Origin: Candidatus Eremiobacteraceae bacterium
Lineage (GTDB): Bacteria > Vulcanimicrobiota > Vulcanimicrobiia > Eremiobacterales > Eremiobacteraceae
NCBI GenBank assembly: GCA_035710745.1
Contig: DASTCX010000025.1
Span: forward strand, 186,001-250,000
Direction of reading: 5' to 3'
DNA: 64,000 bases
The notes under the pieces were generated by a model. It was not told the origin of the DNA. It did not search any database and worked only from the letters and a program-made list of their open reading frames with translations. Each line of letters starts with the position of its first letter. Position 1 is the first letter of the stretch. Positions 46,996 through 53,223 of the stretch are shown piece after piece. Position numbers and translations under genes: made by a program.

Positions 46996-47111
46996 CGATA
47001 CCGCTTCCGGAGCGAGACCGTATCGGGGCTTCTTCCGCTCGCGGTGGGCGTCCTATACGCCTGGTAAGGCGGCGGCGGGATTGGTCTACGGATTGCGCGG
47101 ATTCTCAGGCT

Positions 47112-47690
47112 GTGACCCTCGAGCTCGTCAATACGATCGCCTCGGTCGCTACGACTCTCATTGTCGCAGCGGCTGCCGTCGCGGCGCTCGTGCAGCTGCG
47201 TCACCTGCGGGCGCAGAACCAGATCAGCGGCCAGCTCGCGCTGCGCCAGATCCTCCTCGATCGCGATATGTTCGAGGCAGTCGGGCGCGCCCGCCAAGAA
47301 GTGCCCGAGCTCATGAAAGAGCCGGCCTTCAGACGTTACGTCGCCGACTACCATCTCGGTCTCGCCGCAGACAACGAGCGTTACGACTCGCTGTATGAAG
47401 ACATCTTGGTCGTCGGACGCAACCTCGAGAACATCGGCAACATGATCCGCAACGGCCTCACCGATGCGCGCATCTTCGTCGAGCAGTACTCGCCGCTCGT
47501 CATGATCGCATGGGATGCGATCGAACCGCTGCTCCGGATCCGCCGCGCAGCGACCCGCTCCGATAGCGATTGGGAGGATTTCGAGTACCTCACCGTGCTT
47601 GCGCGACGCTGGACGGCAGAGAAGAGCTCGGCATATCCCGCGGGCGTCGAGCGCATCCTTCCGCCACACTCAGAACTGGACCGAGACTAA
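47112..47690 (+). CDS. Single-pass membrane protein (DUF4760-like)
   Basis: A 192-residue protein with one N-terminal membrane segment (about 6-25, VNTIASVATTLIVAAAAVAAL) and a cytosolic helical part containing LRHLRAQNQISGQLALRQILLDRDMF. This is the layout of the DUF4760 group, whose role is unknown. GTG at 47112 is the start; the ribosome site is weak. It is followed by a hairpin that may end its transcript. Confidence 0.7.
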   Translation: MTLELVNTIASVATTLIVAAAAVAALVQLRHLRAQNQISGQLALRQILLDRDMFEAVGRARQEVPELMKEPAFRRYVADYHLGLAADNERYDSLYEDILVVGRNLENIGNMIRNGLTDARIFVEQYSPLVMIAWDAIEPLLRIRRAATRSDSDWEDFEYLTVLARRWTAEKSSAYPAGVERILPPHSELDRD

Positions 47691-47734
47691 GAATCAAGGA
47701 TTCAAGGACACCCGCCCCGCACCATGACGTCGTA

Positions 47735-47776
47735 AAGCAAAGACCGGGCGATAGGAACGCCGGTCCGCTTTTGCTT
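47735..47776 (+). terminator. Long hairpin, probable terminator
   Basis: AAGCAAA...ACCGG-G-CG loops to CG-CCGGT...TTTGCTT, with both outer (7 bp) and inner (7 bp) stems and a short T run in the outer arm. It ends four bases before the GGAGG ribosome site of the next gene, so an attenuator role is possible. Confidence 0.5.
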
Positions 47777-47790
47777 CAGCGGAGGCCGAA

Positions 47791-49593
47791 TTGGCGACGC
47801 CAGGTGCCAGCTTTGAAGATCAACGCTCGCGGTCGCGACGGATCATTCGAATAGTCGTCGTCATCGGCTTGGTCGCGTCTGTCCTCGCGGTATCTCTTCC
47901 CGGATTGCTGCCGGCTATGCGCGACAACGGCACGATCTTGAACCTCGGTTTCGACTATGCAGGCCGTGTACAAAGCCTCGACGCGGTCAGCGGTCGATCG
48001 GGGTTACGTGTTGGCGATCGCGTGATACTGCACGGTTTCACGCTCAAAGAGTGGGAGCAGCTCACCATGGGCGTGCCGATGGCGATCGGCGAGACGATCC
48101 CACTCACCGTCGAACGCGACGCCCGAATCGTTGACATCGAGATCAAGGCCGACACCGTGAGCGGTTGGCCGACCTATTTGGTATACTTGATCAAGACGCT
48201 TTCGCAGGTGACGTATCTCATCGTCGCATGTGGGTTGGTGCTGCGCAAACCCAGCCGGTTGACGTGGAGCTTCTTCGCGCTCGCTTTCGGCTATGCGGCG
48301 GACATCACGCAGCCATGGTTTTGGCGTAGCCCTGCGGCCTCGCTTCCCATGCTGTGGTGGGCGCAGCTCTACAATGGCGTCGCCATCACGCCCGGCGCGC
48401 TGCTCATCTTTGCGGCCTCCTTCCCAGGCCAGACGAGCGGCTTGTTCTGGCGCATCGTCGATCGGACGGGCATTCCGGTCAACGTGATCTTGACGTTGCA
48501 GAACGTGGTTTTTTACGTAGCAGGCGTGGCCGGATCGGCGTTGGCGTTTCCGGCGTTGGTCGCTCCGTTGTGGTCGTTTGCAACGCTCGTCGGAGTCCTC
48601 ATGGTGGTGATCGCCTACTGGAGCAGCGTTGCCGATCAGCGTCAACGTCTGAAGTGGGTCATCTTCGCGTTCATCGTGTCCTACCTCGAGCGCGCGTTTG
48701 TCACGTATGTGGATTTTACCGGCGGTCTCTGGCCTCCGGCGTGGTCGAGCGCGGGGTTCACTCCTGACGCGCTCGCGATCGTCAACGTCCTCGTGCCGGT
48801 CACCGTGGCATACGCAGTTCTCAAGCATCGCGTGCTCGACATCAATTTCGTGTTCAGCCGTGCGCTCGTCTACGGCATCATCACGTCGCTTGTCGTCGGA
48901 GCGTTCGCTTTGATCGACTTCGTGCTCTCGAAGGAGCTCGAACAGCACCAGCTCGCGGTGGCGGTGGAAGTCGTCTTCGCGATCGGATTCGGTTTTGGGC
49001 TCAACGGCATCCACAAGCAGGTCGACGCGTTCGTCGATCGCATTCTTTTCCGCAGCCGCCACATGGCGGAAAGGACGATCGAACGCGTCGCGGCAGGCTT
49101 GCCCCACGTGACGTCCGCGCGTGCGGTCGACGAAACGCTCGCGGAGGACCCTACGCGTACCCTCAACCTTCTCTCCGCGGCGGTATTCGTTCGCGACGAG
49201 TCCGGAGCGTTTGCCCGGCGATCCGCGGTCGGTTGGACCGACGGCGGAAGCACGAAGATCGATGCGGACGACCCGCTTATCGTCAACCTGCTGGGAGAAT
49301 TTGGAACGATGCCGTTGAGCGAGGTGCGGCAAGGATCGGCTAGTCTTCCTACAGGGGTTGGCGCGCCGGCCATCGCCGTGCCGATGTTCGTCCGCCACCA
49401 GCTTCTGGGTTTCGTGCTCTACGGAGCACACGCGAGCGGCGAGGACATCGACCCGGACGAACGGCGCTTGCTCGAGCGGCTTGCGCACGCCGCCGCGGCC
49501 ACGTACGACCACATCGACTCAGAATCCGCGCGCACCAAACTTCGCGAGATTTCGCAGGAACTCGCCGTGTTGAAAGCCTCAGCGCGCGCGTAG
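47791..49593 (+). CDS. ComP-like membrane sensor with PDZ and GAF-type domains but no kinase domain
   Basis: A 600-residue protein. After an N-terminal membrane segment (about 18-42) there is an extracytoplasmic PDZ-like domain (VSGRSGLRVGDRVILHG, 65-85). Seven or eight membrane segments follow (about 130-400), and then KHRVLDINFVFSRALVYGI, which is the linker seen in ComP-type and related membrane histidine kinases. The C-terminus (about 420-590) looks like a GAF domain (VFVRDESGAFARR, IAVPMFVRHQLLGFVLYG, LLERLAHAAAATYDHI). No H-box, N-box or G-box is present. TTG at 47791 is the start, with GGAGG 5 bases upstream. Confidence 0.75.
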   Translation: MATPGASFEDQRSRSRRIIRIVVVIGLVASVLAVSLPGLLPAMRDNGTILNLGFDYAGRVQSLDAVSGRSGLRVGDRVILHGFTLKEWEQLTMGVPMAIGETIPLTVERDARIVDIEIKADTVSGWPTYLVYLIKTLSQVTYLIVACGLVLRKPSRLTWSFFALAFGYAADITQPWFWRSPAASLPMLWWAQLYNGVAITPGALLIFAASFPGQTSGLFWRIVDRTGIPVNVILTLQNVVFYVAGVAGSALAFPALVAPLWSFATLVGVLMVVIAYWSSVADQRQRLKWVIFAFIVSYLERAFVTYVDFTGGLWPPAWSSAGFTPDALAIVNVLVPVTVAYAVLKHRVLDINFVFSRALVYGIITSLVVGAFALIDFVLSKELEQHQLAVAVEVVFAIGFGFGLNGIHKQVDAFVDRILFRSRHMAERTIERVAAGLPHVTSARAVDETLAEDPTRTLNLLSAAVFVRDESGAFARRSAVGWTDGGSTKIDADDPLIVNLLGEFGTMPLSEVRQGSASLPTGVGAPAIAVPMFVRHQLLGFVLYGAHASGEDIDPDERRLLERLAHAAAATYDHIDSESARTKLREISQELAVLKASARA

Positions 49594-49602
49594 GCTCTGT
49601 CC

Positions 49603-52035
49603 TTATTGCCAAAACGTGCGAATTAGCAAGTGTGTACCGTCCGTCTCCCCTTCGACTCCACCGTCCAGGTCGGTCCGATAGATCCTCGCGCCGGCGTCGC
49701 GGAGGGCGGCTAGCGTGTGCGGGCTTGGATGGCCGAAGACGTTGTGCAGGCCGCACGAGATAATCGCGACTTCCGGATGGACGGCCGCGAGGAACGCCGG
49801 CGTCGACGAGTATGCGCTGCCGTGGTGACCGACCTTAAGGATGTCGGCTCGCAAATCGGCGGTTCCGTGCGAGAGCAGCCGCGCCTCCGCCTCCGACTGC
49901 GCATCGCCGGTCAATAGGATCGCCGTCCTCGCGAACTCGACGCGCAGCACGACCGAGTTGTTGTTGATATCCGATGAGGATCCCGTGATGAGCGGGAGTT
50001 CGGGTTCGAGAATCGTCACGTGCGTCGTCCCGCCGAGATCGAACGATTCGCCGCGCCGCGCGACCCGATATCGGACGTGACGTTGGCGCACGACATCCAG
50101 AGCCCGTTGGTACGCCGGACCGCCGTAAAGTTGGGCGGAGTCGTACAAGACGCCGACGTTCTCGCGCGCCAAGATGACCGGGAGACCGCCTGCATGATCA
50201 CCGTGCGGATGCGTCAGAACGACCGCATCGAGATGGAGCACCCAGTGCCGCAGGAGGAACGGCATGACCGTTCGCGTGGCGATGACGTCGCCGATCGGCT
50301 GCGCGACGACCTTGTTCGATCCGCTACGCTCGAGCCTTCCACCGCCGTCGACAAGCATCGCGTGCATGCCCGGTGCGCGCACGAGGATGCAGTCGGCTTG
50401 GCCGACATCGATGGCGTCGACGCGAAGGTCGGGATCGAGCGCCTCCTTGATACCGGGCGCGACATACATAAGGGCGAGCATAGCGGCAGCCGGCGCGGCC
50501 CAGCGGATGATGTGTTGCCGCCGCGAGGGATCGCGCAGTGTCCATGCAGCGCCGGCGAGCGCGACCCAATAGAGGACGAGAAAGGCATGCGTTGGCGGCG
50601 GCACGTCGACGTGCGCGTGCGGAAGCGACGCGAACTTGTCGACGACGGCGATCATGAGCGACAGCATCCACCACGCGAGATTCGAAAACGGCGCGAGCAA
50701 TGGCGGGCAGACGGCGGTTGCCGTCAGCAACGCGCCGCCGAGCGCCATGACGATGCCGACGAGCGGCACGACGACGAGGTTCGCAAGAACCGCCCAGGGC
50801 GTGAACGCATCGAAATAGAGCGCTTGGAACGGCCACATCGCGATCTGCACGGCGAGGCTTGTCCGAGCGAGCTCGATGATACGGGCCGGCATGCCGCAGT
50901 CGTCGTTCAGACCTGCGTCGCGCAATGCGGGCGAGAGAAGCGCGATGCCGCTGACGCAGGCGAACGACATAGAAAAGGAAGGCGAGAGCAGTGCGAGCGG
51001 ACGCGGCAGCGCGACCGCGAATGCTGCCGCGGCCAGAACCGCCGACGCCGATCGGCCGCGCCCCGATTCGTAGGCGACGGCGCCTGCGGTGAGCATCGTC
51101 GCGGCCCGGATCGTTGGTATGTGAAGGCCGGCGAGCGCGGCGTAGCCCCACGACGCGCAGATGACGATGGCGGTGCGCACCAAGCGCGGGATCGGCAGAC
51201 GGACGAGCAGCCACGTGACGAGCGCGGCGAAGATCCCGAGGTGTAGTCCGGCGGTCGTCAGGACATGGACGGTGCCCGTATCGGAGAACTCTTGGCGCAA
51301 AGCGGCGGGAAGCTGCCCACGGTCGCCCCACAAGATGCCTTCGAGAACCGTCGCCTCGAGCGGCGGCAGACGCGCCTCGACCGCGTGCGCGCAGGCAAGA
51401 CGCAATCGGCTCATCCACGCCTCCCAACCAGGAGCGTCGCCGAGCGGTTTGACGTCGTAGGCCGACGGAGCCGCGAGGATGACGCGGACGCCTTGTTCGG
51501 CGAGCTCGTCACGCTCGGCCGGCTCGCCGTCATTGCGCGCACCGTCCGGCATGCTCAGCCTAGCGCGAACGAGTACGAGCTGACCGGCGAGCCGGTCCGG
51601 GCGCGCTAGCGACGGAAAATCGAGAAGTGCTACTTCTCCTCGCAAAGCCGCGGCTGCCGCGCTGCGCGGCGCATCGACGGCGACGATGCGGGCCCGCGTC
51701 GTTAGCCCGCTCGCCGTCGGCCGGGGCCGATCGACGACGACGACCCGCGCGATGACATGATGCTCGCCGAGCGGCGCGAACGGCAGGTCGACGCGTTCTC
51801 TAAGCGCGAGAGCGGCGCAGGTCGTACCGACGATGAACGCGGCGGAGATCGTGATCGCGAGCGGACGCAGTTCGCGCCTGGCGAGCGACGTCGCTGCGGC
51901 GATCGAAGCGAGCGCCGCGAACATCTCGATCCACGTATGGATGCCCGCCGAAATAGCGATGACGCCGAGCGCATACGCACCGAACGAGATCGCGAATGCG
52001 TGCGCGCGATATGCGGCGGAGAAAAACGCTTCCAC
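49603..52035 (-). CDS. comEC: ComEC/Rec2 DNA-uptake channel
   Basis: Membrane channel that brings single-stranded DNA into the cell during natural transformation. The 810-residue protein has an N-terminal soluble/OB region, the competence domain with membrane helices (VLTTAGLHLGIFAALVTWL, ALAGLHIPTIRAATM) and a C-terminal metallo-beta-lactamase-like domain (VLTHPHGDHAGGLPVIL, LVDGGGR, ILLTGDAQSEAEARLL, LKVGHHGSAYSS). All zinc-type residues of the nuclease domain are present. Start GTG at 52035. comEA is 4.5 kb away on the other strand. Confidence 0.95.
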   Translation of the reverse strand: MEAFFSAAYRAHAFAISFGAYALGVIAISAGIHTWIEMFAALASIAAATSLARRELRPLAITISAAFIVGTTCAALALRERVDLPFAPLGEHHVIARVVVVDRPRPTASGLTTRARIVAVDAPRSAAAAALRGEVALLDFPSLARPDRLAGQLVLVRARLSMPDGARNDGEPAERDELAEQGVRVILAAPSAYDVKPLGDAPGWEAWMSRLRLACAHAVEARLPPLEATVLEGILWGDRGQLPAALRQEFSDTGTVHVLTTAGLHLGIFAALVTWLLVRLPIPRLVRTAIVICASWGYAALAGLHIPTIRAATMLTAGAVAYESGRGRSASAVLAAAAFAVALPRPLALLSPSFSMSFACVSGIALLSPALRDAGLNDDCGMPARIIELARTSLAVQIAMWPFQALYFDAFTPWAVLANLVVVPLVGIVMALGGALLTATAVCPPLLAPFSNLAWWMLSLMIAVVDKFASLPHAHVDVPPPTHAFLVLYWVALAGAAWTLRDPSRRQHIIRWAAPAAAMLALMYVAPGIKEALDPDLRVDAIDVGQADCILVRAPGMHAMLVDGGGRLERSGSNKVVAQPIGDVIATRTVMPFLLRHWVLHLDAVVLTHPHGDHAGGLPVILARENVGVLYDSAQLYGGPAYQRALDVVRQRHVRYRVARRGESFDLGGTTHVTILEPELPLITGSSSDINNNSVVLRVEFARTAILLTGDAQSEAEARLLSHGTADLRADILKVGHHGSAYSSTPAFLAAVHPEVAIISCGLHNVFGHPSPHTLAALRDAGARIYRTDLDGGVEGETDGTHLLIRTFWQ

Positions 52036-52156
52036 GCAGCGACATCACCACGCGCGCATCGCGCGTCCAGCGCGACGATCGCCGTCCGAGGAACGTTCAT
52101 AGGGTACGGGGAAGAAGTATGCCCAGCCGTATGCTCTCGAGAAAGGAACGCGCTAC

Positions 52157-52225
52157 GTGGACACTCTCGTCGTCGTGCTCTTAGTTCTGATCCTGCTGGC
52201 TGTGACGGGTCACCTACACCTCTAA
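52157..52225 (+). CDS. 22-residue hydrophobic membrane peptide
   Basis: A short reading frame: GTG at 52157, with AAAGGA 9 bases upstream, and TAA at 52223-52225. The peptide MDTLVVVLLVLILLAVTG plus HLHL is one membrane helix with a negative N-terminus and a histidine-containing end. It resembles in kind the small single-helix proteins seen in many bacteria, but I cannot place it in a family. It lies between comEC and the sugar epimerase. Ribosome site and clean hydrophobicity support it; conservation is not known. Confidence 0.5.
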   Translation: MDTLVVVLLVLILLAVTGHLHL

Positions 52226-52287
52226 TCGCCGGTCTTCACCACTCGCCGCGATAGGCGGCCGATCTGGGTCGTGGGCCCGGGGTCTCC

Positions 52288-53223
52288 ATGCGCATCCTTG
52301 TGACCGGCGGTGCGGGCTTCATCGGTTCGCACGTCGTCGACGAATGCATCGCCGCCGGACACGATGTCTCGGTCGTCGATAACTTCTGGCAACACGGCGG
52401 CGGACGGCGTGCCAATCTCAACGCCAAGGCGAAGCTCCACGAGATGGACATCCGCGACAAGGATGTCCGTCAGGTCATCCGCTCGTTTCGCCCGGACGTC
52501 GTGAGCCACCACGCCGCACAGCATAGCGTCGCGATATCGACCTCCGATCCGGACTACGACGCGGACGTCAACATCCGTGGGCTCGTCAACATCCTCGAAG
52601 GCTGCGCGGCCAACGCCGTCAAGAAGGTCGTCTTCGCTTCGTCGGCCGCGACATACGGCACGCCGCAATACTTACCGATCAACGAGACGCACCCGCAACT
52701 CCCCGAATCGCCTTACGGCATCACGAAGATGGCCGCCGAGCACTACCTCCGCTACTATGCCGCTTCGAAGGGCCTCGCGTTCACCGCGCTCCGCTACGGC
52801 AACGTCTACGGACCCCGCCAAGATCCGAACGGTGAGGCCGGCGTCATCGCGATCTTCACCGGGCGGATCATCCGCGGCGAGCCGATCCGCGTCGACTGGG
52901 ATGGCGAGCAGCGCAAGGATTACGTCTTCGTGGGCGACGTCGCTCGCGCGAACGTCATCGCGCTGACGCAAGGCAAAGACGACGTCTTCAACATCGGAAC
53001 CGGCATCGGGACCTCGGTGAACTCACTGCACGCCGCGATCTCGTCCGCGGTGGGCCGCGACGTCGACGTCGTCCATGCGCCGAAGCGCCCGGGCGACGTG
53101 CGCACGTGCATCTTCGCGATCGACAAAGCGCGCGAACAGCTCGGCTGGGAACCGACGACGGCGCTCGCAGAGGGCATCGCGAAAACCGCGGCCTACTTCA
53201 AGAGCGCGACGACCGCCTCGTAG
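52288..53223 (+). CDS. NAD-dependent sugar epimerase/dehydratase (UDP-glucose 4-epimerase type)
   Basis: A 311-residue extended short-chain dehydrogenase. The NAD loop is ILVTGGAGFIGSHVVDE (residues 3-19), followed by DIRDKDV, VSHHAAQHSVAIS, the catalytic SSAATYG and SPYGITKMAAEHYLRYY (Tyr-x-x-x-Lys) and LRYGNVYGPRQDPNGEAGVIAIF. It would epimerise or dehydrate a nucleotide sugar for surface polysaccharide. The exact sugar is unclear. Its 3' end overlaps the convergent hydrolase gene by 31 bases. Confidence 0.93.
   Translation: MRILVTGGAGFIGSHVVDECIAAGHDVSVVDNFWQHGGGRRANLNAKAKLHEMDIRDKDVRQVIRSFRPDVVSHHAAQHSVAISTSDPDYDADVNIRGLVNILEGCAANAVKKVVFASSAATYGTPQYLPINETHPQLPESPYGITKMAAEHYLRYYAASKGLAFTALRYGNVYGPRQDPNGEAGVIAIFTGRIIRGEPIRVDWDGEQRKDYVFVGDVARANVIALTQGKDDVFNIGTGIGTSVNSLHAAISSAVGRDVDVVHAPKRPGDVRTCIFAIDKAREQLGWEPTTALAEGIAKTAAYFKSATTAS

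Follow-up and report, generated by a model that had tools for sequence, protein, structure and literature searches.

The gene at positions 47791 to 49593 of the window, the 64,000-nucleotide stretch of DNA that was analysed, encodes a multi-pass membrane receptor that stops shortly after a cytoplasmic GAF domain, and its product is not a histidine kinase. The absence of an output domain is a trait of the whole family, not an oddity of this gene. Among the three readings offered in a preliminary description (a decoy receptor, a partner for a separate kinase, or a new sensor type), the last is the best, because the kinase-free state marks the entire family. In bacteria, the annotation of multi-pass sensors usually follows the enzyme that they carry, and kinase-free receptor genes are easily overlooked, since Pfam sees mainly their PDZ and GAF pieces. 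Here, a whole class appears to have retained and multiplied the sensor and dropped the enzyme, and selection still maintains the cytoplasmic GAF domain. A literature search with little coverage of subscription journals found no description of this receptor family.

Organization of the Receptor Gene

The features of the locus are as follows (coordinates in the window, strand, feature, basis).

47112..47690, +, DUF4760 gene upstream of the receptor gene, with a gap of ~100 nt (Pfam)
about 47735..47776, +, inverted repeat 5' of the receptor gene, statistically ordinary (read from the sequence)
47781..47785, +, GGAGG, Shine-Dalgarno-like, 5 nt ahead of the TTG (read from the sequence)
47791..49593, +, kinase-free receptor gene, 600 aa, TTG start (one open frame)
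47848..47910, +, first membrane segment (TM1), ~residues 20-40, N-terminus inside (family hydropathy peak at 22-36, K/R-rich N-terminus)
47923..48156, +, extracytoplasmic PDZ-like domain, ~residues 45-122 (PDZ_6 in the family; weak PDB and NCBIfam matches)
48184..49005, +, membrane segments 2-10, ~residues 132-405 (hydropathy of 128 members and K/R pattern; the third is a weak shoulder)
49021..49155, +, conserved linker with an FRxRHxAE motif, residues 411-455 (mean consensus share 0.48)
49156..49497, +, GAF domain, residues 456-569, family signature LYGxHxxGxDxDPDE (Pfam GAF_3; family consensus)
49507..49590, +, C-terminal tail, probably helical, residues 573-600, where the output domain begins in relatives (low-confidence models)
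49603..52035, -, comEC, convergent neighbour, outside the system (Pfam; co-occurrence test)

The TTG start with its strong GGAGG had been correctly recognized in the preliminary description. The long hairpin reported ahead of it is present but not notable: compared with 200 shuffles, the folding of this stretch has a z of -1.20 (25/200 shuffles being equally good), and no terminator was called there.

GAF_3 (E 1.6e-7) is the sole Pfam family found in the window protein at E ≤ 0.001, and its score of 32.3 bits, against a curated cut-off of 27, identifies a GAF domain. It is followed by ~30 residues and the stop codon, with no kinase match, in agreement with the GAF-terminated protein described earlier. 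The PDZ-like domain that had also been proposed is weak in the window protein alone, with phmmer matches to the PDZ chains of site-2 proteases in the PDB (E 0.013-0.57), a match to the NCBIfam RseP model over residues 65-124 (E 0.0039), and no Pfam PDZ model at E ≤ 0.05; it is clear at the family level, PDZ_6 being found in 39/56 members (Pfam, E ≤ 0.05). Antibody chains in the PDB sequence search (E 0.6-0.8) were taken as chance matches. Structure models from a five-sequence alignment are of low confidence (mean pLDDT of 45.6 for the full protein and 54.7 for the GAF end), and the PDZ-like region is the highest-confidence part of the poor full-protein model.

The mean hydropathy profile of the 128 members in the alignment has its maxima near residues 30, 142, 200, 235, 265, 298, 335, 367, and 395. 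A weak shoulder at 156-157 was read as the start of one extra segment, the third, with which a helix predicted at 156-171 in the low-confidence model agrees; the last small peak (535-536) falls within the GAF domain. In the family alignment, the scored loops switch between K/R-rich and K/R-poor, and the short loop at ~345-357 has a K/R-rich consensus, though it was not scored as a loop. A topology with the N-terminus inside, the PDZ domain outside, ten segments, and the GAF domain inside fits; from hydropathy alone, the count may be nine, given how faint the shoulder of the third segment is. The earlier estimate of seven to eight segments is unsupported, hydropathy and the K/R pattern giving about ten. 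The tail ends differ from member to member, and no conserved C-terminal peptide was seen in the family.

Absence of an Enzymatic Output

The fetched loci contained 141 distinct family frames, of which 131 are full-length (the 10 others were left out). In 127 of these 131 members, 0-31 residues follow the model match, which leaves no room for a kinase. Another member (L136) has 73 residues past the match, in which no further domain was found, and three have 708, 708, and 736. Domain content was read in an alignment of 56 members, with three fused members left out, together with L067, whose long frame has its extra length at the N-terminal side only. Pfam (E ≤ 0.05) detected kinase families in 0/56 members, and curated 7TM sensor models such as HisKA_7TM also matched 0/56. 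The 13 Pfam families found in these members include no receiver, GGDEF, SpoIIE, or MCP signalling domain; BLH_phosphatase appeared once (0.0029) and was taken as stray. A histidine-kinase profile, run downstream of 119 members in three frames, gave nothing at E ≤ 0.01; in the six frames of window positions 47001-53000, it had a single match, with an E of 0.5.

As 127/131 members end alike, with no kinase in the 56 scanned or downstream of the 119, the lack of output characterizes the family as a whole. HisKA and HATPase_c are absent after the membrane part of the window protein, which is thus no ComP-type histidine kinase, and Pfam found no wHTH or BTAD in it, so that it is no SARP-type regulator either.

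Distribution and Origin of the Family

Besides the window copy, its genome carries eight further copies that are complete or nearly so, including a fused one, and two adjacent, apparently degenerate fragments of another (L050; G000 contig C7 2336-2718). The receptor has a match (E ≤ 0.001) in 49/61 genomes, its own included, with up to 22 matches in one genome, fragments counted. In a scan of the phylum with the 56-member profile, which scored 8 candidates per genome, 99/149 genomes matched at E ≤ 1e-10, all of them in one class (listed as the own genome or the same genus, family, or class), for which at least 117 genomes are listed; some are matched by a shortened or GAF-end form only (e.g., G017, G029, G034, G057, G106, G107, and G130). 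At E ≤ 1e-8, seven more genomes of the class match, as do three from other classes of the phylum, the latter over PDZ-sized stretches only. A tblastn search of the receptor against plasmids gave no match, and a scan of genome contigs for close relatives gave 4 loci, all from Eremiobacterota/Eremiobacteria. L009 and L040 (G045, of the same class as the own genome, G000) were taken as one gene because of their equal frame length and score.

The tree was built from 57 in-class sequences out of 134 (a named set, to which 45 were added at random) and from 20 of the 30 outside-class ones. The window copy clusters with L042 from its own genome and L052 from the same genus (support 0.968); its best match in another genome, among the matches listed, has 41% identity. 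The split between in-class and outside-class sequences has a support of only 0.633, and the 57 in-class sequences with L227, a SpoIIE form, are grouped at 1.0. Two or more family genes are adjacent in nine loci. Seven receptors (L051:37-11220) and five receptors (L138:120-8206) lie in operon-like rows on one strand, counting partial genes at contig ends; in many, the start overlaps the preceding stop, and several have PAMExL/P-like tails.

Outside the phylum, 68 genomes match at E ≤ 1e-8; the 27 with the best E-values were examined, and the top 30 of their 50 matches were taken as loci (for L229 and L240, the frame that follows an internal stop was used). A catalytic output was read by Pfam in 28/30: HisKA/HATPase in 12, SpoIIE in 13, HD_5 in 2, and guanylate cyclase in 1. 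No catalytic domain was seen in the other two: L215 has a frame truncated by the end of its contig, and L237, at 361 aa, consists of the PDZ and membrane part only. The preliminary description had asked whether all homologues might have kinases; outside the class, 12/30 are indeed histidine kinases, but within it the count is 0/56. The similarity of the receptor to outside-class kinases and phosphatases is full-length over PDZ, membrane part, and GAF, which places it in their PDZ-TM-GAF receptor module, and the best outside-class loci match the near-whole receptor model (L211, E 5.7e-54; L212, E 1.4e-51). More distant homologues match from the membrane part onward only, some without a PDZ match, and some match HisKA_7TM. 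The enzyme domains attach where the kinase-free receptors stop. Since 28/30 outside homologues have the enzyme and the in-class members stop short of it, it seems that this class dispensed with the enzymatic output and expanded the receptor in number.

As a separate observation, four PDZ-TM-GAF-SpoIIE phosphatases from outside the phylum (L212, L213, L214, and L217) share the sensor, and their membrane part has no Pfam match.

Fused Relatives and Proposed Output

Three of the 131 full-length members carry a long arm after the GAF domain, ending in wHTH-BTAD of the SARP type: L048 and L066 from one genus, and L065 from another. BTAD scores over its cut-off in all three (barely so in L065), Trans_reg_C under it in all three, and these rare fusions form one clade (support 0.991). 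In our reading, the arm resembles MalT/AfsR proteins, which are regulators of the wHTH-BTAD/STAND type; MalT models of Pfam gave no match on it. Among 32 arm-related frames, 16 have a P-loop motif, and many of the remainder are cut short; the 32 include two of the fusions and one TM-GAF form.

Shortened forms point in the same direction. L277:3751-6573 combines one membrane segment, the family GAF, the same long arm, wHTH, and BTAD, and is possibly a small membrane-bound transcription factor. Five others (L271:2967-5870, L272:2738-5734, L273:1042-4155, L274:2897-5992, and L275:2166-5105) have two membrane segments, the family GAF, a STAND-like ATPase, and TPR; an NTPase model passes its cut-off in just two of them, L273 and L275, and all five are apparently membrane-tethered STAND proteins. 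No kinase fusion was seen in the class, its fusions being to BTAD or STAND-like modules.

We give about even odds to an explanation in which the window protein, as a receptor without a kinase, signals through its GAF end to a separate regulator that may be of the STAND/SARP type. A ligand bound by the PDZ loop or by the membrane domain would change the GAF/tail dimer, which would then bind or release a separate cytoplasmic regulator without any phosphorylation. STAND/SARP-type regulators would be the likeliest partner class for this copy, because the same GAF is fused to such modules within the class. Natural fusions may in this way suggest the signal's destination: could a sensor of the ComP type control a STAND/SARP regulator with no phosphotransfer involved?

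No partner in trans was seen in 112 receptor loci or through the BTAD count correlation over 61 genomes. A SARP-type gene lies divergently next to the receptor in 2/112 loci (L069 and L167), and at a distance of 3 genes in L068 and 5 genes in L157, the chance level of which was not computed. Receptor and BTAD gene counts are not significantly correlated (rho 0.21, p 0.099); therefore, a simple pairing is unsupported. More tentatively, and with less than an even chance, the class of Eremiobacterota may have kept a ComP/SpoIIE-type sensor, dropped its enzyme, expanded the sensor to as many as ~20 matches in a genome, and connected it anew to STAND/SARP regulators, mostly in trans and at times by fusion. 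If true, this would be a phosphorylation-free pathway from receptor to transcription, with interchangeable receptors, including those in operon-like rows.

Genomic Context and Alternative Outputs

Neighbours were analysed by simple ORF calling in 112 loci (1034 genes), grouped into BLAST clusters, one member of each being scanned with Pfam. The genes scanned near the window receptor are DUF4760, sulfotransferase, comEC, epimerase, and hydrolase. Only small neighbour clusters were found over the 112 loci, and a family-wide operon partner was rejected. DUF4760-type genes occur in 6/112 receptor loci, the window locus included (chance level not computed); TP_methylase is upstream on the same strand in 3, and an aldo-keto reductase is divergent next to the receptor in 5.

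The comEC gene does adjoin the receptor gene, as had been pointed out, but the two are convergent, with 9 nt between their stop codons, and no functional link was found. Over 61 genomes, 43 have both genes, 6 the receptor only, 11 comEC only, and 1 neither (Fisher p = 1), so that the co-occurrence check suggested earlier gave no signal and the association was rejected. One genome (G044) has 22 receptor matches and no comEC match, and no other receptor lies beside comEC among the matches listed, the closest being ~7 kb away (G031 contig C8, by eye).

The receptor could instead serve a separate histidine kinase, its GAF end docking on a soluble or hybrid kinase, as chemoreceptors do on CheA or RetS on GacS. 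The kinase present in cis in 12/30 outside-class homologues speaks for this, and so do the 23 HATPase_c matches of the own genome (22 over the cut-off, and not necessarily all kinases), alongside 29 Response_reg matches (26 over the cut-off). With both kinases and receivers encoded in this genome, a kinase might act in trans. However, only one kinase-like gene was found among the 1034 genes (in L157, three genes from the receptor and on the opposite strand), with a profile that gave 13 matches in the outside-class control frames; the HATPase_c match nearest to a receptor on the same contig of the own genome is ~19 kb away, and the in-class fusions are to other modules. The separate kinase proposed in the preliminary description has candidates in the genome but hardly any in the loci, and we regard this reading as rather doubtful.

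A local regulation of a neighbouring transporter or channel, instead of transcription, is unlikely. It would account for the amino-acid-permease-type gene directly upstream on the same strand in seven loci (L026, L032, L034, L037, L063, L102, and L111; an eighth is further off), with gaps of -40 to 5 nt and a start overlapping the stop in 4/7, which possibly form transporter-receptor pairs, and for the MscS-type gene upstream on the same strand in four. These are, however, just 7 and 4 of 112 loci, and the window copy has the DUF4760 gene upstream and no transporter.

Conservation

In the 14 closest of 171 pairs, dN/dS is 0.07-0.19 over the whole match and 0.02-0.24 over the last 150 residues: the family is under purifying selection. 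The mean consensus share is 0.34 in the membrane core, 0.39 in the PDZ region, 0.49 in the last two segments, 0.48 in the linker, 0.47 in the GAF domain, and 0.32 in the tail. As the sensor is more variable, and the GAF domain and linker more conserved, this suggests varied inputs converging on one shared kind of output.

These values speak against the decoy reading, in which the protein would bind its signal and send nothing. The lack of an output domain in 128/131 members is compatible with such a sink, the cytoplasmic end of which would be expected to decay, whereas the GAF domain and linker are more conserved than the membrane core and kept by selection. Given also the large family and its relatives with DNA-binding or ATPase outputs, we find a decoy very improbable.

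A frameshift or assembly error removing a kinase, the earlier worry, has practically no chance of being the explanation: nothing was found to support it, the common end of 127/131 members and the kinase-free downstream frames of 119 speak against it, and the comEC stop codon lies 9 nt past that of the receptor.

Comparison with Known Systems

The layout closest to that of the receptor is the one of ComP. In published work, ComP of Bacillus amyloliquefaciens is modelled with ten transmembrane helices, a PDZ-fold domain between the first and the second, both termini inside, and an alpha/beta part between the membrane and the kinase (PMC9620489). The comparison with a ComP-like multi-pass sensor, made at the outset, was apt: the two share ten membrane segments (the third being weak in the receptor), a PDZ domain in the first extracytoplasmic loop, termini that are both inside, and an alpha/beta part after the membrane, as compared by layout and not by alignment. 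ComP continues into HisKA and HATPase, whereas the receptor stops.

By sequence, the PDZ-TM-GAF kinases and SpoIIE phosphatases from outside the class (e.g., L211 and L212) match the receptor almost entirely, but carry HisKA and HATPase or SpoIIE after the GAF domain. With SARP/AfsR- and MalT-type regulators, three fused members share the wHTH-BTAD end, and relatives of their arm often have a P-loop; the fusions differ in having the multi-pass receptor and GAF in place of the P-loop domain, and the window copy is without the arm. Chemoreceptors (MCPs) are comparable in the way they work only, as kinase-free receptors in many copies with a presumed common output, and their signalling domain is not among the families found in the receptors.

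PrsK, the histidine kinase of XrtA/PEP-CTERM systems (TIGR02916), is another relative, its model matching 10/56 members (best E 1.9e-9). The receptors lack its kinase half, and the window protein has no TIGR02916 match at E ≤ 0.01. By analogy, the receptor may function as a ComP or PrsK would if its front half were joined to a different back end.
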